Part shown: piece by piece, positions 1 to 35,536 of the stretch | Numbering within the stretch: position 1 is the first letter of the stretch | Layout of the letters: each line of letters begins with the position of its first letter | DNA from: Thiotrichaceae bacterium | GTDB lineage: Bacteria > Pseudomonadota > Gammaproteobacteria > Thiotrichales > Thiotrichaceae | Length of the DNA stretch: 44,491 bases | Assembly (NCBI GenBank): GCA_015486375.1 | Contig: WFRR01000092.1 | Span: 1 to 44,491, forward strand | Reading direction: 5' to 3' | Notes under the pieces: model-generated | Told to the model about the DNA's origin: nothing | The model's database searches: none | What the model saw: the letters and a program-made list of their open reading frames with translations, nothing else | Program-made: the position numbers and the translations under genes

Positions 1-1
1 A

Positions 2-427
2 GCACTCCTCGATACCTTGGGTAAACGACTCCTCAATAGCACTGATCCACTCAAAAACCCAATGGCTTATATTTCCAGTTTGGTGAGTAAACTAGAAACG
101 GGAACATTAGATGTACAGTCTTTTCTTAGCAATACCGAACTAGCAGCAAGGGAAGAAGCGAGAATTACCCAACAAAAATCCGAAAAACATGAACAATTAC
201 AACAAAAAATAGATCAATTAACACAGGATTATTTAGCCGAATACGAGGTCTATAAGCCGACTCATGCCAAAATTGAGCAAGCGGCAAAAGAGACAGGTTT
301 AAACTATCGGGAAGCCGCTAAAAAGCTAGCACTCTTTGAAACTATCACCCCCATATTGAATAAATTGGATCGTTTACTAAATGAAGTCAAGCGTTTAGAA
401 GTAGAACAAGAGAAGCTAACCGTATAA
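2..427 (+). CDS. C-terminal fragment of a coiled-coil protein, possibly replication-protein-like
   Basis: The reading frame is open to the left edge of the window, so only the last 141 residues or so are visible and the real start lies outside. The visible part begins with a short segment containing the run DPLKNPMAYISSLVSKLETG, which resembles the end of helix-turn-helix replication or primosome-type proteins where a NP-x-x-Y-hydrophobic stretch precedes a glutamine/lysine-rich tail. About 75 residues of strongly charged, predicted alpha-helical coiled coil follow. No catalytic motif is seen. It ends 36 bases before the convergent bolA gene. A replication-associated role is only a resemblance. 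It could be any DNA-binding or structural coiled-coil protein. Confidence 0.6.
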   Translation, partial: ALLDTLGKRLLNSTDPLKNPMAYISSLVSKLETGTLDVQSFLSNTELAAREEARITQQKSEKHEQLQQKIDQLTQDYLAEYEVYKPTHAKIEQAAKETGLNYREAAKKLALFETITPILNKLDRLLNEVKRLEVEQEKLTV

Positions 428-448
428 TCCATATAATCCATATAATGG
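423..448. repeat. Short tandem repeat, TATAATCCA-like, about three copies
   Basis: Just after the first gene, two exact copies of the 9-mer TATAATCCA are followed by a third imperfect copy ending TATAATGG. It lies between convergent genes and has no obvious hairpin. It may be simple slippage. Confidence 0.5.
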
Positions 449-4406: not shown

Positions 4407-6314
4407 ATGACACAATTTATACAGGATTTTCATTTTATTTACCCGATGTGGTTAGTATTAATTCTGCCTCTGATCGCTGTTTTAATGGCTTTATTTTTAT
4501 TCCAAAGTAAAAAGAATACGGCACTACAACAATTGGTTGAACCTCAACTTGCCCCCTTTGTATTAACAGGGCAACAACAAAAAACTTCCTATCGTTTATT
4601 AGCTCTGATTGGTACATTGGCTTTAATTGCGATTATTGCAATGGCAGGGCCTAGCTGGGAAAAACGTAAACAAGCCAGTTTTAAACAGCAACAGGCATTA
4701 GTGATTGCTTTAGATTTATCGACCTCGATGTATGCTAAGGATGTACAACCCAGCCGTTTGGTGCGCGCCCGTTTTGAGTTAATTGATTTACTCAAACAAC
4801 GTAAAGAAGGACAGACTGCATTGATTGTTTATGCAGGGGATGCTTTTGTAGTTTCGCCTTTAACCGATGATGCAGAAACCATTGAAGCCCAAGCAAAATT
4901 GCTCAATCCCGCCATTATGCCTGTGCAAGGCAATCGTACCGCCGTCGTTATTCAAAAAGCTCAGCAATTATTAGCGCAAACACAGTTAAAGCAGGGACAT
5001 ATTCTCTTAATTACTGATGAAATTGTGGATCAAAAAGAAACCTTAAAAGCGATTAATACGGCTCGATCTGCGAATATACAAACCTCTATTTTGGGCGTAG
5101 GCACATTAGAAGGTTCACCGATTCCCTTATCGCAAGGGGGCTTTGTTAAAAACAATGCAGGTAATATCGTACTGGCTAAACTCAATGCGAATGTGATGCA
5201 AAGCGTTGCTAATGCAGGCGCGGGTATTTTTGTACAGTCTGTGATTGGTGATCAAGATTTAAATCGTCTTAGCCAACAATTTTCTAATAATAATGCTCAA
5301 TCTTTAGTTAAAGATGAACAAACGGAAATTTCAATCTGGATTAATGAGGGTATTTGGTTAATATTTTTATTGATTCCAATCGTTTTACTCCTATTTAGAA
5401 AAGGTTATTTAGCCAGTATTAGTTTGGTCTTTTTTATGTTGCCACAGAGTGAGCCAAGTCTGGCGTTATCATGGGATGATTTATGGTCAACCCCTAATCA
5501 GCAAGGACAACAGGCTTTTAGTGCAGGAAACAGCAAACAGGCGGCAAACTTATTTGAAAATCCAAATTGGAAAGCCAGTGCCGCATATCAAGCAGGGGAT
5601 TATCAAGCCGCATTACAGGGTTTTATTAAAGATCAAAGTGCAGAAGGTTTTTATAATACAGCTAATAGCTTGGTCAAATTAAATAAAATTCCAGAAGCAA
5701 TGGCTGCCTATACGCAGGCACTTAAATTGGATAAAAACCATTCGGATGCAAAATACAATTTAGAGCTACTTAAGCAACAGCAAAAACAAAAACAGCAGCA
5801 ACAAAAGCAACAACAGAAATCATCTTCTGATCAACAAGACTCGCAACAGCAAAAAAATCAAGATAATAAGGCTGAACAACAAGATCAGTCAGGCAGTCAG
5901 ACCAAGCAAGATGATAAAAATGAAAAAGATGCACAAGCTTCTGAACAACAAGATCAGTCAGGCAGTCAGGCTGAGCAGGACGATCAAGCTAAAAAGGATG
6001 CACAGGCTTCTGAAGATGCAAAGCAGGACAATGCGGATCAACAAGATGCACAGCAAAAATTGGCTCAAGAAGCTGAAAAGCAAGCCTTAGAAGATTGGAA
6101 GAAACAGCAAAAAGACTCAGAAGACGATAAAGATAAAGCCTCTGCTAGTTCGGAATCGACAGAGGCGCAAGATCAACAACAACGCGAACAACAACAAGCA
6201 ACAGAACAATGGTTACGTCGCATTCCTGATGATCCCACTGTTTTATGGCAACGAAAATTTCAATATCAGTATAAACAAGGCGATCAATACAAAAACACGG
6301 GACAAACGTGGTAG
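4407..6314 (+). CDS. BatB/BatC-type VWA and TPR fusion protein with Gln-rich tail
   Basis: This 635-residue protein has two N-terminal transmembrane helices, a VWA domain with MIDAS DLSTS at about 103-107, a third transmembrane helix near 310-330, and TPR-like repeats at about 370-455. A long tail rich in Gln, Asp, Lys and Ser follows. It ends with a conserved block containing WLRRIPDDP and WQRKFQYQY, typical of BatC-type proteins. It therefore combines the functions split between BatB and BatC elsewhere. The low-complexity tail contains a 69-bp in-frame tandem duplication (5874-6011). The gene lies 15 bases after the BatA-type gene and overlaps the next start. The TPR region probably recruits partner proteins in the periplasm. 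Confidence 0.93.
   Translation: MTQFIQDFHFIYPMWLVLILPLIAVLMALFLFQSKKNTALQQLVEPQLAPFVLTGQQQKTSYRLLALIGTLALIAIIAMAGPSWEKRKQASFKQQQALVIALDLSTSMYAKDVQPSRLVRARFELIDLLKQRKEGQTALIVYAGDAFVVSPLTDDAETIEAQAKLLNPAIMPVQGNRTAVVIQKAQQLLAQTQLKQGHILLITDEIVDQKETLKAINTARSANIQTSILGVGTLEGSPIPLSQGGFVKNNAGNIVLAKLNANVMQSVANAGAGIFVQSVIGDQDLNRLSQQFSNNNAQSLVKDEQTEISIWINEGIWLIFLLIPIVLLLFRKGYLASISLVFFMLPQSEPSLALSWDDLWSTPNQQGQQAFSAGNSKQAANLFENPNWKASAAYQAGDYQAALQGFIKDQSAEGFYNTANSLVKLNKIPEAMAAYTQALKLDKNHSDAKYNLELLKQQQKQKQQQQKQQQKSSSDQQDSQQQKNQDNKAEQQDQSGSQTKQDDKNEKDAQASEQQDQSGSQAEQDDQAKKDAQASEDAKQDNADQQDAQQKLAQEAEKQALEDWKKQQKDSEDDKDKASASSESTEAQDQQQREQQQATEQWLRRIPDDPTVLWQRKFQYQYKQGDQYKNTGQTW
5874..6011 (+). repeat. Two tandem 69-bp coding repeats in the Gln-rich tail
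   Basis: Units 5874-5942 and 5943-6011 both encode a 23-residue block that begins EQQDQSGSQ and ends KDAQASE, with a few substitutions between copies. The duplication keeps the frame and lies in the disordered linker before the conserved C-terminal block, so copy number could vary between strains. Confidence 0.85.
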
Positions 6315-22862: not shown

Positions 22863-23210
22863 ATGAGCACGATTATTCAGGAAATTGAACAAGAGCAAAT
22901 GCAAGGAAAAACGATTCCTGAGTTCGCTCCAGGTGATACAATTGTTGTACAAGTTAAAGTAAAAGAAGGCAAAAATGAGCGTCTACAGGCGTTTGAAGGC
23001 GTTGTTATTGCTAAGCGTAATCGCGGCTTAAACTCAGCCTTTACAGTACGCAAAATTTCACACGGTGAAGGCGTTGAACGTGTCTTTATGACTTATAGTA
23101 CTTTAGTTGACAGCATTGAAGTTAAGCGTCGTGGTGATGTTCGTCGTGCCAAGCTATACTATTTACGTGGTCGTACTGGTAAGGCAGCCCGTATCAAAGA
23201 AAAGGTTTAA
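22863..23210 (+). CDS. rplS: 50S ribosomal protein L19
   Basis: This 115-residue large-subunit protein sits at the 30S-50S interface. Diagnostic segments are [34 protein letters not shown] and [16 protein letters not shown]. It is the last gene of the rpsP-rimM-trmD-rplS operon and is followed by a strong terminator. Confidence 0.99.
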
Positions 23211-23222
23211 ACCTTATTCTAC

Positions 23223-23263
23223 AAAAAAGCTGCTTATTGTATTTGCAATAAGCGGCTTTTTTT
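23223..23263 (+). terminator. Intrinsic terminator of the rpsP-rplS operon
   Basis: Stem AAAAAAGC-T-GCTTATTG pairs with CAATAAGC-G-GCTTTTTT around a 6-base loop, ending in a long U tract. It begins 13 bases after rplS. The symmetrical A/T flanks mean it may also stop the convergent replication-like gene. Confidence 0.93.
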
Positions 23264-23270
23264 GTGCCTG

Positions 23271-24512
23271 TTATTTTTGGCTATAATATATGTTATTAAA
23301 CATCTTTCCTAAAATCCCGAATGGCATATTCACTTTAGTTAAGTAATCATAATATCTTGAAGTATCAATAAGTTTTTGTTTTATAAAGTTCTCTATCTCA
23401 ACTTTATTCGCCTCTGTCTGTTGTTGAAAGTGCTGTTTTAACTCATTTTGATCAATATCGCGTTCTTGTCTAAATAAATGCTCTAATTCTGCTTGAGCGG
23501 ATTGTCTTTGTTGCATAAATAACGCTTCTAAGGCGATCTGAGTTTCTCGGTTTTCTTGCTGATGTTGCTCAATTAATTCCGTTTGTTGCTGCACAAATTT
23601 ATCCAGTTCCACTTGACCGATTTGGTTGTGTTGATTCAGACTAAATTGTTGTTCAGAAAAGGCTTCTAGCATATTAATTCGGGCTTCAAATTTATCCAGT
23701 TGCTTGATTTTATCGTCTAATGTTGTTCCCAGCGTTTGTGCTAATGCCTCCATATGTTGTGTGACTTCTGAGAGCATATTATCGCTAAACTGTGATAATT
23801 TTTGCTGAATCTCCGCTTCCACTTCAACATTAAGGGCTGGATGATCTTCAGGAATATTTAAATTAACCACTTGGGATACTTCTTGTCGTTCAGAGGGTAT
23901 TTGAGTTTGAGACAGGTTAGCTACTTGCATGGGTGTTGAAATGGTTTGTGCGGGTGCTTGGATTGGTGTCTGCGAGGCTTGAAGCTGTGCGGCAGTTATG
24001 GCGGGTGCTTGCGGGGGTGTTGTGGCTGTTTCAGACGGATTATCAATACAATAGCCTGCATCCACAGGTTCAGTTTCTTCAGGTAACAATTGAGTCGGGT
24101 CATTACTGCTGGGGTGAATATCAATATTGGATTTGCCCCATGTGCTGAAATTAAAATTAATTGACATCCAAAAACCATGAAAGCCTTTGCGTAAAATCAA
24201 TATATTTTTAGCGGCTAATTTTTTAACAATCACATTGACATGATCATAACGAATTTTAGTAATTTGTTGTAAACGCGCCCCATTCATATCATCTTCATGC
24301 TTCCAAAAACCGATGGTATGCCGAAAAACCGCATTTAATACGCGCATTTCATTCCCTGAAAATTGCCATTGCACCAGATGGCTTAGCCATGCAGAGGTAA
24401 TAATATTGAGTTGATTGGGAAGTAAGTTTTTTAGAGAATTATCAGACGCAGAGGTAGATTCCTCTGGATTGCTCAGAGCGAGTTCGTCAGGGTAGAATGC
24501 AGCATTATGCAT
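23271..24512 (-). CDS. Phage/plasmid replication protein O-like protein with coiled-coil tail
   Basis: This 413-residue protein has an N-terminal winged-helix region at about residues 28-125, including FSGNEMRVLNAVFRHTIGFW, a NGARLQQITKI-type recognition segment and VIVKKLAAKNILILRKG. This matches the pattern of the phage replication O domain (PF04492), which binds origin repeats. A Pro/Gln-rich linker at about 135-225 and a long Gln/Glu coiled coil at about 240-395 follow, which is unusual for RepO proteins. No helicase or polymerase motif is present. It is convergent with rplS. Upstream of it lies an array of about nine 22-bp repeats (24913-25124). The combination suggests a replication initiator with its iterons, but an autoregulated transcription factor is also possible. 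Confidence 0.75.
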   Translation of the reverse strand: MHNAAFYPDELALSNPEESTSASDNSLKNLLPNQLNIITSAWLSHLVQWQFSGNEMRVLNAVFRHTIGFWKHEDDMNGARLQQITKIRYDHVNVIVKKLAAKNILILRKGFHGFWMSINFNFSTWGKSNIDIHPSSNDPTQLLPEETEPVDAGYCIDNPSETATTPPQAPAITAAQLQASQTPIQAPAQTISTPMQVANLSQTQIPSERQEVSQVVNLNIPEDHPALNVEVEAEIQQKLSQFSDNMLSEVTQHMEALAQTLGTTLDDKIKQLDKFEARINMLEAFSEQQFSLNQHNQIGQVELDKFVQQQTELIEQHQQENRETQIALEALFMQQRQSAQAELEHLFRQERDIDQNELKQHFQQQTEANKVEIENFIKQKLIDTSRYYDYLTKVNMPFGILGKMFNNIYYSQK

Positions 24513-24912
24513 AAATCAATCCTATTGCGATTGGTTAACTGAAGTGCTGTTGAGTTCGTAAAAACTCAGCAGAGCGATGTCGTCGAAATTGGCAAGGATG
24601 CGAAAAATCAACGCCCATTACTCTAAACCAAATTAAATACATAATGCAAGGCTTTTTTTCTGATGATTGTTTCAGCAGTCTGCTTAGCTATTGCCCCAAT
24701 CGTTGCAATGGCACGGCTCTTTCTCGTGTTAAATCGCTCTTTTGAATACTGTGATTTAGCACAGGTCGTTGCTACTGAAGCTATTAAACCCATGACTAAT
24801 CCACACCACTACCCACCCTACATCCAGTCAAATCGCGCCTCAATCTAACAAATCAATCGAATCTCCTCGCGCGATTGTTAGTCTGTATTATTGTTAATAA
24901 TTGTCTATTGTG
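24513..24912. other. Gap between the RepO-like gene and its iteron array
   Basis: This 400-base stretch has no convincing gene. It holds an inverted repeat near the RepO-like start (24547-24572: CTGTTGAGTT and AACTCAGCAG around 6 bases). A second, imperfect one lies at 24845-24881 (CTAACAAATC and GATTGTTAG). An AT-rich segment at about 24882-24910 touches the repeat array and could be a DNA unwinding element. Confidence 0.5.
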
Positions 24913-25124
24913 ACCCCTAAGGTGGGGTAGATTTGCAGATTTTTTAGGCAATCTTAACCTAATGTAGGGTGAGTTAATACCCTGAGTTAGGGTGGCAAGA
25001 TAACCTACCTTGGGGTGGGAGTAACCTAGATTAGGGTGGTCGATTTCCTGAGTTAGGGTAGGGGTAACCTAGTTTGGGGTAGGGCTTACCCTAGAGTCGG
25101 GTGGTGTATAACAAGGGTTAGGGT
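24913..25124. repeat. Iteron-like array, about nine repeats with 21-23 bp period
   Basis: A core reading roughly AACCTAGNTTAGGGTGG recurs. The GGGT cores end at 24928, 24970, 24993, 25016, 25037, 25059, 25080, 25102 and 25124. Steps are 21-23 bases except the first, which is 42. Two helical turns per step place every core on the same DNA face, as in plasmid origins. Each unit is also an imperfect dyad (ACCTA against TAGGGT). The array ends 23 bases before the fimV stop and lies upstream of the RepO-like gene. Confidence 0.85.
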
Positions 25125-25147
25125 GTTAAAAATCTGCTTATCACCTA

Positions 25148-27946
25148 CTAACCCGTTTGGTGTAATAAGTCTTCTGCTTCTCGTTTTTGGTCATCACTGC
25201 CTTCAACGATTACTTCTTCTAAGGTGCTGCGTGCGCCTTCAATATCACCCATATCAAGGTAGGCGCGGGCGAGTTCTAACTTAGTACTAATATGTGCTTC
25301 ATGTAAGTCAAAGTTTTCATCAGGTAGATCAAGGAAAGCTAAAATATCGTCTTCTTCTTGAGAAAACATATCATTACGTTGACTGCTATTGGACGAATTT
25401 GTATAAGGTGTTCCCTTAGGAAGAATTTTATCAATGCCTGTCGCACTATTAACACTTAAGTTTAAACTGGCTAAAGCAAGTTTATTATCAGCGTTATCTT
25501 TATCTTTATTATCATCATTAAAAGCCGTTTCAAAATCAATAATATTGCTTGCATCATGATGATTATCATTTTTAGCCTGAGCATCTAATTCTTTCTCTAG
25601 ATCATCAAGACTAAAATCATCACTATCAACTATTTGTGACTGCTGCTTTGTGGATGGATTACTATGACTACCTTTGACAGCTTTTGCGGTGAATTGCGTG
25701 TCAATCAGAGTGAGTGCAGAGGGTTTAGGAGTATTACTTGCATCCTCTATCGATGTAGCATTATTAACTTTTTTATTTGTTTTGGTATCTTTTGTTTTAG
25801 TAACTGTCGCTGTTTCTAATGGGCTGTCTATTTCAGAAAAGACCACAGTATCAATATCGGCTGTCTTTTTATTTTGATACAGGCTGTTATCGGGACTGAT
25901 TTTAAGTCCCATTTCTTGTACTTTTTTCCAGATTTCTGGCTTATTATTACCTTCAAGTGACTGAAGTTTTTCAGCATGCTGATCAAAAGCGGCTTGATTA
26001 TTAGAGGCAAGATAGTTTTCTAACAGTTTCTGTCGATATTCAAGTTTTTGAGGTTGATCCGCAATGGCCTTTTTTAACTCGGCTTCAGCTTGATCATGTA
26101 AGCCATAAACAATATAAACATCGGCTTCCTGCAAAATATCGTCTTCAATCGCATTATCAATGGTCAAAGAGGTTTTTGTAGTAGAGCGAGTACTACTAAC
26201 ATCACTTTTTTCAGTGGCATTATCAATATTGCTAAAGAAATCCTGATGACCTTTGGTATCAAGATTATCATCCTGCTTAATATCATTATCTAAACTCTCG
26301 AAACTTTCATCAAAGTTATCGAGTGACTCCATTAGGTCATTATCATTAATGGCTTTTTCTTGACGACGGGCAATAAGCAACCATGCTAATAGCAACAGTA
26401 ATATAACTCCTGTTCCTGCTGCTGCGGCAATCGGGGATGAAAGAAATGCTGTGATACTGCTTGGATTATCTTTAAAACCACCATTATCACTATTAAACTG
26501 CTCAGTATTACCATCAGATTGTATAGATTGATTAGACTCACGGCGTTTTTCAGCAATTTGGGCAGCAGTGAGTAATGTCTCAGCTGCATTTACATCGGGT
26601 GTTTCATTATTCGCATTAATATTCGAAGGGATATTGGCAGTTTCTGCTGTATTTTCTACTTGATTGGAGCGAGCTTCTTGATCAGAATTGGGCAGATTTT
26701 CTTGTAATTTAGCCAGCTGCTGATTCTTAAGCGTAATTAAGCGATCTTTTTTACTAATTAGTGATTGCAAATCATTCACGCGGGATTTTAATTCTGTATT
26801 CTCGCGCTTCTTACTTAGTAAAGATTCTTGTGCTAATAGTAACTGTTGTTCTAATGCGCTAATTTGCGCTTTGCTACTGCTAGATGCCGTTGCATTTTCG
26901 TTCACAGTGCTTTGTGTCGATTTACCCAGTACTTCTAAATGGGCAGTTACTTTATCCTCTGCTGCTGTGGCAACTGAAGTAACATTAGTATCACTCGTCT
27001 TTGTTATCTTTTTTATAACGCTATCAGGTGGGGTTGATAAGCTAGGCTGTGCGACGGTTTGCCCAGCAAGCTTTTTTCGAAATTGTTTCCACTCGGTGTA
27101 ATGTTTACGAACAGCCTGTTGTGCTTGTCTGCCTGAAATCGCTTGAACTGTTTGCTTGTTCGGTACGCCTAAAGACACTCCTGCTTTTAAACCGTTGATA
27201 TTATTATTTCGGAACGCGCTGGGGTTAGCACGGAACAATGCCAGCATCATTTGATCCGTACTCATACCTGAATTTTTTACTCGTGCTGCAACCTTATATA
27301 AGGTATCCCCTGATTTAACCCGATACTTAGCTTGTGTTTTGAGTGCTGCTGTCTTAACGTCACGATTTACACTTTTATCTAGACTTGGGGGAATGCTGAG
27401 TTTTACGGAATTTTCAGGGGCAGTAACAACGGCGGCTGCTGTGGGTATAATCGTGTTATTCGTATTGTTTTTAGGGACACGTTGCACAAAGCCTGTTGCT
27501 TTAGGTTCAGCCCGTACAGAGGCTGTATTATTTAAAGAATTACCTGATTGCATCAATATCGGGGTATCTAACTGTACGGTATATTCTTTTAGCAATTGTC
27601 CTTGTGGCCAACTGACTTCCAATAAAAAGTTAAGAAACGGCTCTTTAATGGGTTGTTGCGAAGAAACAATAATGACAGGTTTACCATTTTGAATACTAGA
27701 GCTGAACTTTAGACTATTCAAATAGGCAGGACGATCAATACCAACACGATTAAACACTTCCGCTGAAGCAAGACGCACTTTAATGTCTTGTGCTTCTTTG
27801 TTACTGATTGAAAGTAGTTCTATTTTCGCGTTGAGTGGTTGATTAAGATGAGAACTTGACCGTATATCACCAAGACCAATAGCACCTGAATTTAATGGAT
27901 ACGCCCCAGCAATGCATACAGCTAGACTCAAAGCCTGTTTATTCAC
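25148..27946 (-). CDS. fimV: FimV/TspA family inner-membrane polar protein
   Basis: This 932-residue protein has a signal peptide and then the FimV N-terminal domain LGDIRSSSHLNQPLNAKIEL. A LysM peptidoglycan-binding domain begins near residue 207 (YRVKSGDTLYKVA), followed by a coiled coil at about 360-410 and one transmembrane helix near 505-527. A very acidic cytoplasmic region follows with TPR-like segments, and the conserved FimV C-terminal motif KLELARAYLDMGDIEGARST ends it. FimV organises polar type IV pili and twitching. The GTG at 27946 has GAGGGG upstream. leuB-asd-fimV is a conserved gammaproteobacterial order. The usual next gene, truA, is absent here and the iteron-like array lies instead. 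Confidence 0.96.
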   Translation of the reverse strand: MNKQALSLAVCIAGAYPLNSGAIGLGDIRSSSHLNQPLNAKIELLSISNKEAQDIKVRLASAEVFNRVGIDRPAYLNSLKFSSSIQNGKPVIIVSSQQPIKEPFLNFLLEVSWPQGQLLKEYTVQLDTPILMQSGNSLNNTASVRAEPKATGFVQRVPKNNTNNTIIPTAAAVVTAPENSVKLSIPPSLDKSVNRDVKTAALKTQAKYRVKSGDTLYKVAARVKNSGMSTDQMMLALFRANPSAFRNNNINGLKAGVSLGVPNKQTVQAISGRQAQQAVRKHYTEWKQFRKKLAGQTVAQPSLSTPPDSVIKKITKTSDTNVTSVATAAEDKVTAHLEVLGKSTQSTVNENATASSSSKAQISALEQQLLLAQESLLSKKRENTELKSRVNDLQSLISKKDRLITLKNQQLAKLQENLPNSDQEARSNQVENTAETANIPSNINANNETPDVNAAETLLTAAQIAEKRRESNQSIQSDGNTEQFNSDNGGFKDNPSSITAFLSSPIAAAAGTGVILLLLLAWLLIARRQEKAINDNDLMESLDNFDESFESLDNDIKQDDNLDTKGHQDFFSNIDNATEKSDVSSTRSTTKTSLTIDNAIEDDILQEADVYIVYGLHDQAEAELKKAIADQPQKLEYRQKLLENYLASNNQAAFDQHAEKLQSLEGNNKPEIWKKVQEMGLKISPDNSLYQNKKTADIDTVVFSEIDSPLETATVTKTKDTKTNKKVNNATSIEDASNTPKPSALTLIDTQFTAKAVKGSHSNPSTKQQSQIVDSDDFSLDDLEKELDAQAKNDNHHDASNIIDFETAFNDDNKDKDNADNKLALASLNLSVNSATGIDKILPKGTPYTNSSNSSQRNDMFSQEEDDILAFLDLPDENFDLHEAHISTKLELARAYLDMGDIEGARSTLEEVIVEGSDDQKREAEDLLHQTG

Positions 27947-32995: not shown

Positions 32996-35536
32996 ATGTT
33001 ATTTCAGTCTTTTTTTCAGCGCATACTCAGATGGAGTTTGCTTATTGTCGTGGGTTTATCTCCCTACGTTGTACTTGCAGATGATGAAATTGTAGAAACA
33101 GATACGTCACCACAAACAGAAAATAATTTTAAAAGCGTTGTCCCTTTGCTTATTGGTTTAAGGGTGGAAGATGCCATCGTACTTCTCCCCCAATATGATT
33201 TATCGTTGGGAACCGTGACTGAAATAATAACAACAGATAAAGATAAAGTTGGCAAAATTATCACACAAAGTATTACAGAAGGTGCTGAAACTAACCGTTG
33301 GGGAAATATTGATGTCAGCGTCCATGTTTCTTCGGGAAAAGATAATACGGCTAAACCTCAAGCAGAACTTAAACAAGAAATAGTCTCTACACCTCAAACA
33401 CCTGTTAACGAAGTGATTGTTATTCCTGAAGTTGCAGAAGTTAAGGGAGAAATTAGTAATAAGAAACAATCAGTATCTGAAAATATAGAACAAGCAGAAG
33501 TTGAAGTTAAGCAAATCCCACTTAATGAAGAGCTTAAATCAATTGCTATTCCTGAAGTTACTGAGCTTAAAGAAACTGTATCTACAAGTGCAAAAACTGC
33601 TTTAGTGCCAAAAGTTAGTCAGGATAAACCGTCTATTGAAATCAAAGAAGTTAGTCAGAATAAGCCGATTGCTGAAATCAAAGAAGCTAGACAAGATAAA
33701 CCATCCATTGCAGTAAAGACAGTTAGTACAGAAGAAAAGTCAGAAGTTAGTTCTGTTGAAATTATTGATAATGAAGATAAAAAGGATAAAGATGAAAATA
33801 GAGCTAAGGACAATATTGCTACAGAATCGAAAAAAACGACGCTAAGTACCACAGCATCTACAACCCCTGTATCTCGATCAGTAAATTATGGGGGGAGTCA
33901 AGTGAGAGTGAGTATTTCTCCGAGTGAAATACAAGTAACTCGTAAAATTACTATGGAAATACAACTTGACCCTCCGATTGAAAGCGATAAATTAGTGTAT
34001 CAATTTAATCTTTCAGGTAAATCTTATACCCGTAAAACCCCTGTATTTACTCATACCTTTCAAGAAGAAGGTAGTCAAATTATTACGGCTAGTGCGCGTA
34101 TTTTAGGAAAGCCTTGGATTCATTCCAATTCGCGCCGAATTAGCATTGGTAAATATATTGCTAAGAAAATCAAAGTCCCTAATCTTGTTGGCTTAGATGA
34201 AGCCGCAGCAAAGACCTTATTGGAAAGCAAGGGTTTATTAGTCGGCAATACACAAGAAAAAATCATTAAAGGCGGCAAAGGTATTATCAAACAAATGCCA
34301 GCCGCAGGCAGTATTCGTACCGAAGATGATAATAAAATTCATTATGTAAAAGCGATTGATGAAAAATTCAAGCTCAGTGTTGCCCCCCCTAGTACCGAAG
34401 TAGATACAGGTAAAGTGGTGACTATTTCGGCACAACTTAGTCCCAAAGCATCAGGGAAAAAAGTACGTTATCGTTTTATTGTTAATGGCACACCGTACTT
34501 TAGTACGTCCTCTCACTGGAAACATACCTTTGAAAAATCAGGTAATAACACCGTAGTGGCTGAAGCTATTATTACAGGAGAAGGCACATTCACGAGTCCA
34601 GCAATGAACTTCGGAGTACAAGAGAAATGGAGTTTACCTAAAGCGGTTATTACCCCCTTTACTGTTAGTGTTGAAGCAGGTAAAACGGTGACCTTTAAAA
34701 GTGCCTCATCTTATGATCGACGCGGTGGCGTTAATATTGTCTGGGTTGATGCCAAAGGACGTTTATTGGAACAAAACCAACTAGCCATTGATACCACAGG
34801 TTTAAGTGCAGGTGAGCATACCGTTAATTTGCGTATTAAAGATGAAAAAGGTTATGAAGATAAGATTAGCGCGCAATTAATTATCACTGCTACATCAAAG
34901 GATAGTAAAAAAGATGAGAAGGATATAGCCGTAGGCACTACTGATATAGATAAGGAGACTAAAACAGCAGAGGAGCAAACAGAAAGTCAAACTCAACTGA
35001 CTGAAGCAGAAATTATCCAGCAACAACTCTTAGAAGAAGCGCAACGAATGAATGCTGCAAATCTTGTCTTGGAAGCAGAAAAAGCCAATGGTGCTGGTGC
35101 AGAGGAGGAGGAAGAAGTGCTAGAAATTGATTTATCCAATCAATATGCTGAAAATGTAATGACTTCCCCATCCACAGAAATGAGCGAAACAACGAATACA
35201 CAACTAATAGCAGCCAGTGAGACTCAAGCAGCAGAGAAGAGTCCTATGAAGGTTAATGTTGTGATTTGGTTAGGCAGCATTATTGCTATTTTACTAGCAA
35301 TTTTTTGGGTCTTGCGTCGATCAATTAAAGGTCAGAAAAAACCTACCCCAGAACTTGAGCCTGATCTTGAAGTACGGGCTGAAATTCCAGCTTCACCTTA
35401 TAAGAAATCAGGGGATATAAGTAGTAATAAGACTCAAGTTGAACCGCATTTAGTTGACTTTGATTTGGGTGATAAACTCAATAAAACACTAACTGATAAG
35501 GAGAGTTTGACTGATTTTAAACTGGATGATAAATAG
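32996..35536 (+). CDS. Exported protein with PASTA domains and C-terminal membrane anchor
   Basis: This 846-residue protein has a signal peptide ending near residue 29 (VVLADD). A first PASTA-like domain spans about 45-110 (PLLIGLRVEDAIVLL). A Lys/Glu/Val-rich linker with a 12-residue tandem repeat is followed by Ig/PKD-like segments and a second PASTA domain near 395-450 (KVPNLVGLDEAAAKTLLESK). PKD-like repeats at about 455-635, an acidic coiled region, one transmembrane helix near 753-775 and a basic cytoplasmic tail complete it. PASTA domains bind peptidoglycan and are usual in Gram-positive kinases and PBPs. No kinase domain is seen here. A cell-wall sensing or scaffolding role is inferred. 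Confidence 0.82.
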   Translation: MLFQSFFQRILRWSLLIVVGLSPYVVLADDEIVETDTSPQTENNFKSVVPLLIGLRVEDAIVLLPQYDLSLGTVTEIITTDKDKVGKIITQSITEGAETNRWGNIDVSVHVSSGKDNTAKPQAELKQEIVSTPQTPVNEVIVIPEVAEVKGEISNKKQSVSENIEQAEVEVKQIPLNEELKSIAIPEVTELKETVSTSAKTALVPKVSQDKPSIEIKEVSQNKPIAEIKEARQDKPSIAVKTVSTEEKSEVSSVEIIDNEDKKDKDENRAKDNIATESKKTTLSTTASTTPVSRSVNYGGSQVRVSISPSEIQVTRKITMEIQLDPPIESDKLVYQFNLSGKSYTRKTPVFTHTFQEEGSQIITASARILGKPWIHSNSRRISIGKYIAKKIKVPNLVGLDEAAAKTLLESKGLLVGNTQEKIIKGGKGIIKQMPAAGSIRTEDDNKIHYVKAIDEKFKLSVAPPSTEVDTGKVVTISAQLSPKASGKKVRYRFIVNGTPYFSTSSHWKHTFEKSGNNTVVAEAIITGEGTFTSPAMNFGVQEKWSLPKAVITPFTVSVEAGKTVTFKSASSYDRRGGVNIVWVDAKGRLLEQNQLAIDTTGLSAGEHTVNLRIKDEKGYEDKISAQLIITATSKDSKKDEKDIAVGTTDIDKETKTAEEQTESQTQLTEAEIIQQQLLEEAQRMNAANLVLEAEKANGAGAEEEEEVLEIDLSNQYAENVMTSPSTEMSETTNTQLIAASETQAAEKSPMKVNVVIWLGSIIAILLAIFWVLRRSIKGQKKPTPELEPDLEVRAEIPASPYKKSGDISSNKTQVEPHLVDFDLGDKLNKTLTDKESLTDFKLDDK
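33614..33721 (+). repeat. Three tandem 36-bp coding repeats in the PASTA protein linker
   Basis: Units 33614-33649, 33650-33685 and 33686-33721 encode VSQDKPSIEIKE, VSQNKPIAEIKE and ARQDKPSIAVKT. They lie in the low-complexity linker between the signal peptide region and the Ig-like part. Confidence 0.85.

Follow-up and report, generated by a model that had tools for sequence, protein, structure and literature searches.

A C-terminally truncated phage O-like initiator gene with upstream iterons and a two-hairpin leader, and its dispersed paralogs in a Thiotrichaceae genome

The locus and its gene

The window, by which we mean the whole 44,491-nucleotide stretch that was analysed, is contig C92 of a Thiotrichaceae genome (G000; 2.67 Mb in 175 contigs). 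On its minus strand it carries a gene, here called repO, with a structured leader, an A/C-rich strand and a repeat array on its 5′ side. The features are given below, with the basis for each in brackets.

1..441, plus strand: C-terminal end of a second repO paralog, at the contig start (92.5–94% DNA identity)
22863..23210, plus strand: rplS, the convergent neighbour of repO (ORF neighbourhood)
23271..24512, minus strand: repO paralog, 413 aa, C-terminally truncated (ORF and profile searches, paralog comparison)
23274..23363, minus strand: tail of ∼30 residues that is absent from paralogs, the C-terminal domain being missing (comparison with paralogs, e.g. L022 and L041)
23334..23828, minus strand: predicted long helix or coiled coil, residues 229–393 (AlphaFold2 at low confidence, composition)
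23853..24062, minus strand: Pro/Gln/Thr-rich linker, approximately residues 151–220 (composition; pLDDT <50)
24138..24386, minus strand: Phage_rep_O winged-helix domain, residues 43–125 (PF04492 match)
24470..24498, plus strand: predicted antisense promoter TGCTCA-N17-TAGAAT, inside the repO coding region (−10 scan; −35 weak)
24505..24582, plus strand: predicted cis-antisense RNA over the repO leader (the RNA and its ends by inference)
24510..24582, minus strand: two-hairpin leader over the ribosome-binding site and start codon, the R1/R2 element (covariance models, covariation)
24870..24913, minus strand: A/C-rich strand beside the last iteron, a candidate unwinding region (sequence inspection)
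24914..25125, no strand assigned: iteron array of about nine sites with 21–23 bp spacing and one gap (pattern and eye)
25148..27946, minus strand: gene that we take from its sequence to be FimV-like, the neighbour on the iteron side (ORF neighbourhood)

The rplS terminator hairpin (∼23224–23265, located by eye) adjoins the repO stop with its end. The paralog fragment at the contig start belongs to the subfamily of the copies on contigs C133, C36 and C103. Elsewhere in the window, tandem repeats occur within open reading frames (69 bp at 5872–6014 and 36 bp at 33612–33702).

The original prediction described the gene as a RepO-type winged helix joined through a Pro/Gln linker to a long, Gln-rich coiled coil that replaces the C-terminus. 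The winged helix was recovered: PF04492 (Phage_rep_O) matches residues 43–125 with 37 bits against a curated cut-off of 28.7 (E = 5e-9), and PHROG O-like families match the protein with E-values of 1e-11 to 2e-7. The score against TIGR01610 (phage_O_Nterm) was 35.6 bits, below its equivalog cut-off of 45.5 bits. An AlphaFold2 run on a 4-row alignment gave a mean pLDDT of 49.5, and the model is therefore usable for secondary structure alone. It predicts helices and a two-strand wing at residues 32–119, and a single long, broken helix at residues 229–393. Proline and glutamine are enriched in residues 151–220, and glutamine content reaches 24% in residues 301–350, in agreement with the proposed linker and, as far as the predicted helix goes, with the proposed Gln-rich helical part.

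The proposed replacement of the C-terminus applies to this copy and not to the family. In most full-length paralogs, the winged helix is followed by a linker or coiled coil that varies and then by a C-terminal region that is conserved. Compared with a 71%-identical paralog and others, the window protein is truncated and ends in ∼30 unrelated residues beside the rplS terminator. Since the paralogs keep both linker and C-terminal domain, the C-terminus has been lost in the window copy rather than replaced throughout the family; C99 and C166 also hold truncated or decayed copies. The C-terminal region of paralog L079 is predicted to be helical (pLDDT ∼70–80); a fold search with this model returned no PDB matches at E ≤ 0.001, and PDB sequence searches gave nothing useful. 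At two loci, genes of the AAA-ATPase_like + PDDEXK_9 type lie directly 3′ of repO (L022:2591-4150 and L026:1972-4414; Pfam assignment for the L022 gene only).

The iterons share the core YACCCYAANNTAGG on the repO strand, seven of the sites in the window being found by pattern and the others by eye. The best 80-bp self-match of these repeats is at lag 21 (p = 0.01 against 200 dinucleotide shuffles). The array thus consists of directly repeated, helically spaced sites adjoining an initiator gene, as in iteron replicons, and the predicted link between repeats and gene holds at this locus. As a constant feature it holds in part. Periodicity reached p ≤ 0.01 in 11 of 17 upstream regions (through iterons in eight and the A/C-rich strand in three) and fell short of it in six (C143, C54, C78, C13, C85 and C99), making the linkage common rather than universal. 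Judged by eye, the iteron sequence varies by repO subfamily.

A covarying leader and a predicted antisense RNA

The leader spans ∼73 nt ending with the start codon, and is predicted to fold into a mismatch-interrupted hairpin followed by a second hairpin around the ribosome-binding site. In the window it scores 26.1 bits with covariance model R1 and 52.5 bits with R2, the training set of which included the window row. When all 26 leaders were aligned with MAFFT, misaligned hairpins left RNAalifold without a structure; the fold was recovered from a nine-row subset and the covariance model. Across 41 distinct rows, 15 of 17 pairs have two-sided changes (131 cells, compared with 44 in shuffles and at most 26 in slid controls), in an alignment that was fitted to the model and leans towards it.

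Of 63 family genomes, 22 have the element according to the first model, which was built from the leaders of nine relatives; its sites include some without repO. With R2 and a limit of E ≤ 1, the leader was found at 17 of the 21 repO 5′ ends of G000; five of the 17 have E-values between 0.05 and 1, and eight were included in the training set. Where matches without repO were inspected (a part of them), the leader lies downstream of Rep_3 initiator genes on plasmids or contigs (L118, L121, L123 and L125), near a TrfA gene (L122), in an inovirus-like contig (L117) and before an integrase gene (L119 and L126); named Thiothrix plasmids have similar DNA at leader sites. Outside the family, R2 occurs as single copies in seven genomes from other gammaproteobacterial families (L156–L163), and one of these elements precedes an ORF that is presumably ArdA-like. 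Where tested, the R2 element gave no Rfam match at gathering score, and a leader pattern search of viral contigs gave no match. In the closed genome G067 and in G066, the repO genes (L091–L097 and L110) have a different, longer, structured-looking leader with the motifs GGGACT, GGCGGTTTTTTT and CGGGTATGCGTGGATTACAA, which again corresponds to no Rfam family at gathering score.

In the genomes of other families, Rfam SymR (52.1 bits, E = 5e-7) or PtaRNA1 matches lie opposite the R2 matches at L156, L160 and L161, at scores below gathering (52.1 against 61 bits and 34 against 47 bits, respectively), and L156 also has a weak R1162-type match on the leader strand. No Rfam antisense family was found at the window leader or at the six loci searched in relatives, so the antisense assignment for the window is made by extension. 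Given that SymR and PtaRNA1 lie opposite related leaders, a promoter is expected inside the gene on the other strand. An opposite-strand −10 (TA...T, with at least four of six consensus bases) is present 7–11 nt inside the gene, a range chosen post hoc after an earlier look at the promoters, in all 42 leader-bearing genes tested, compared with a mean of 2.1 in 500 shuffles (maximum 8) and with 32 of 215 other genes; the 42 encode proteins of several unrelated families, and copies among them share ancestry and are hence not independent. The window promoter was not listed by a generic promoter scan, and the −35 boxes are weak. According to PMC1891008, SymR pairs with the 5′ end of symE mRNA by full complementarity, and replication proteins are limited by many plasmid antisense RNAs.

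Copies of repO and their genomic places

In a protein search, repO had 29 matches in G000 and no match in either of two congeners. A profile run against 63 family genomes yielded 27 rows in G000; beyond it, genera g3 and g8 had a few strong rows and g2, g4 and g6 had weaker ones, and the family was not found in the two congeners or in 40 of the 63 genomes. G000 holds at least 21 copies, with 21 readable 5′ ends, 21 readable 3′ ends and the decayed copy on C166; because many contigs end inside repO, starts and stops on separate contigs may belong to the same genes. Relatives are also present in Cocleimonas sp. SW_1_6 and a Leucothrix MAG (contig scan, four-row alignment). With one paralog as query, tblastn found no relatives among 72,556 plasmid records and 50,697 phage records, and none turned up when viral contigs were scanned for the family.

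All 23 N-domains from G000 form one clade (UFB 89, SH-aLRT 92; 92% of 200 bootstrap trees), and dN/dS was 0.13–0.34 in each of the 24 repO pairs tried, pairs that are not independent because the copies share ancestry. The repO genes are under purifying selection. Together, the single clade, these ratios and the absence from congeners fit amplification within the lineage with function kept.

By eye, the neighbours of repO include rplS, folP-glmM, aspC, hemH, grpE-dnaK-rimI, kdsB, sbcC, mltG, queC, comEC, a GAPDH gene, a mutT-like gene and gidB-parB, among others. Complete copies with other genes on both sides lie inside contigs C4, C13, C85, C95, C124 and C133 as well as in the window. The gene converges on the next gene in 15 of 21 cases, compared with 83 of 256 other ORFs on the same contigs (Fisher p = 6e-4, for copies that share ancestry and are hence not independent).

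Filled and empty sites were seen in relatives. In G020, amiC is followed by repO, whereas in the five relatives readable at this site (G014, G049, G052, G053 and G054) it is followed by the next conserved gene without repO; in G050 and G009 the sequence ends before that gene. The G020 insert holds another gene besides repO, and the mobile unit may therefore exceed the module. Similarly, repO comes after ispH in G050 and G053, and a different gene takes that place in G009 and at one of the two G020 copies. Rearrangement in the congeners G001 and G002 is too extensive for an empty rplS site to be seen there. Of the eight repO genes (280–330 aa) in the single-contig genome G067, seven are solitary among ordinary genes and one lies by a resolvase gene; one pair (L091 and L096) is 93% alike over ∼1.1 kb, a stretch that takes in promoter and leader as well as most of the gene, and differs thereafter. 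Neither exact boundaries nor target duplications were found in the G067 pairs or at the amiC site. In the modules no recombinase was recognised and no target duplication or terminal repeat was found, and their 5′ and 3′ limits vary between copies.

Two loci (L097:10073-13926 and L110) hold a small element with a leader, two small ORFs, repO, membrane proteins and a serine resolvase, which is possibly a complete mobile relative. Clusters of REP-like short palindromes (of the GACTTTAAGTC and GGACTTTAGTCC type) are present at contig ends by repO modules (L022:1-155 and L031:7173-7328), and on C172 REP-like palindromes occupy the place of the iterons and the first hairpin.

Interpretation and comparison with known systems

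We consider it rather probable that the locus is a minimal replicon, one of many dispersed copies, consisting of iterons, an A/C-rich strand, an O-type initiator and translation under cis-antisense control. The protein family, its copy number and location between core genes, purifying selection, leader covariation and a repeated antisense −10 site are observed, and beyond them we propose how such a unit might operate. The RepO protein would bind its own iterons via the winged helix, open the A/C-rich region and recruit the host DnaB helicase through the C-terminal domain, with the antisense RNA over the ribosome-binding site limiting the initiator level and hence firing. Small plasmid- or phage-like elements may have given rise to the units, which would have been amplified in this lineage with no recombinase of their own. 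As the window copy keeps the iterons, leader and DNA-binding domain and has lost the C-terminal domain, its sequence leads us to expect iteron binding without helicase loading, that is, a defective or inhibitory copy.

A different function, that of a nucleoid or segregation factor, had been suggested in the original prediction. Here, a domesticated host factor would act on the (perhaps polyploid) chromosome through its winged helix and coiled coil, organising or segregating it, and the iterons would be dispersed landing sites. Purifying selection, the many dispersed sites, the intact DNA-binding domain and a multicopy family limited to G000 within its genus are what such a factor might display, but the gene is missing from the two congeners and 40 of the 63 family genomes searched, decayed and truncated copies exist, and subfamily-specific iterons run contrary to one common landing site. 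Moreover, the leader is common to plasmids and an inovirus, which, with the predicted antisense control, the multicopy accessory distribution and the filled and empty sites, fits a mobile replicon better; host domestication is not supported, and we regard this reading as improbable. It is similarly unlikely that each module is the decayed leftover of a lambdoid-type prophage. While the PF04492 and PHROG O-like matches and the truncated copies (C99, C166 and the window) are in keeping with prophage remnants, by eye no other phage genes lie beside most copies, the neighbours being core genes; most ORFs are intact with dN/dS below 0.35, the iterons lie outside the gene, and the G000 copies form one clade.

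The complete origin-initiator layout, at no fewer than 21 sites in 2.67 Mb, might also be read as a set of working auxiliary origins that fire regularly and help to replicate the chromosome. We think this very unlikely, as there is no GC-skew switch at the modules (upstream +0.021, s.e. 0.011, n = 13; downstream +0.007, s.e. 0.009, n = 22), dnaA is present in the genome, and the modules are missing from congeners. With no GC-skew signature of regular firing, the modules are probably mostly silent, passive or young. Least credible of all is an assembly or binning artefact in which plasmid modules were wrongly joined to chromosomal contigs; a 175-contig genome in which many contigs end within repO invites the suspicion, but it is countered by the complete copies within contigs, flanked by genes on both sides, and by single-contig G067, where solitary repO genes likewise lie among ordinary genes.

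A wider and distinctly tentative extension of the minimal-replicon reading is a class of solo replicons, each an origin, an initiator and an antisense RNA, that might multiply in the chromosome by (over)replication and recombination without a recombinase, with more than 20 coexisting through diversified iteron specificity without cross-talk. Bacterial chromosomes are usually described as having one origin and as tolerating few extra ones. With at least 21 initiator genes, most having a linked origin-like region, silencing, movement and initiator-iteron divergence become testable here. A covarying leader common to initiator, integrase and inovirus genes also suggests that one antisense switch is reused across the small replicons of this family. 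Comparable dispersed modules were not found in the literature listings and abstract openings searched, which cover few subscription journals.

Several known systems resemble parts of the module. Archaeal chromosomes have several origins, each adjoining its own Orc1/Cdc6 gene, and G000 likewise has several origin-initiator pairs per chromosome; in contrast to the archaeal case, GC skew gives no sign that repO modules drive chromosome replication. The STY4528-family island replication protein (NF040582) gives weak C-terminal matches at profile positions 254–321 in L049, L052 and L047, and at 141–316 in L026, although the best score is 23.6 bits against a cut-off of 130, and the window protein, in which this region is missing, has no match. 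The SymR, PtaRNA1 and R1162 RNAs (RF01809, RF01811 and RF00043), like the predicted RNA, cover the ribosome-binding site and start over ∼75 nt, but the window leader is unmatched by their models and the target here is a replication initiator.

The closest likenesses are in replication initiation. Lambda-type O proteins (PF04492/TIGR01610), like RepO, have an N-terminal winged helix and an iteron array nearby. The lambda iterons are inside the O gene, whereas those of repO are upstream (∼24914–25125) and outside it, and RepO differs further in its long linker, its different C-terminal domain and its chromosomal dispersal. Unlike in lambda O/P, no P-type helicase-loader gene was recognised by eye adjoining repO, the neighbours in the window being rplS and the FimV-like gene. 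Iteron plasmids of the Rep_3 and TrfA types, like the repO module, have helically spaced iterons beside one initiator gene, and the Rep_3 plasmids of Thiotrichaceae have the same leader as repO modules. In the Rep_3 cases the leader lies 3′ of rep3 and 5′ of another small ORF; compared with these plasmids, the repO unit is chromosomal and its initiator is of the O type.
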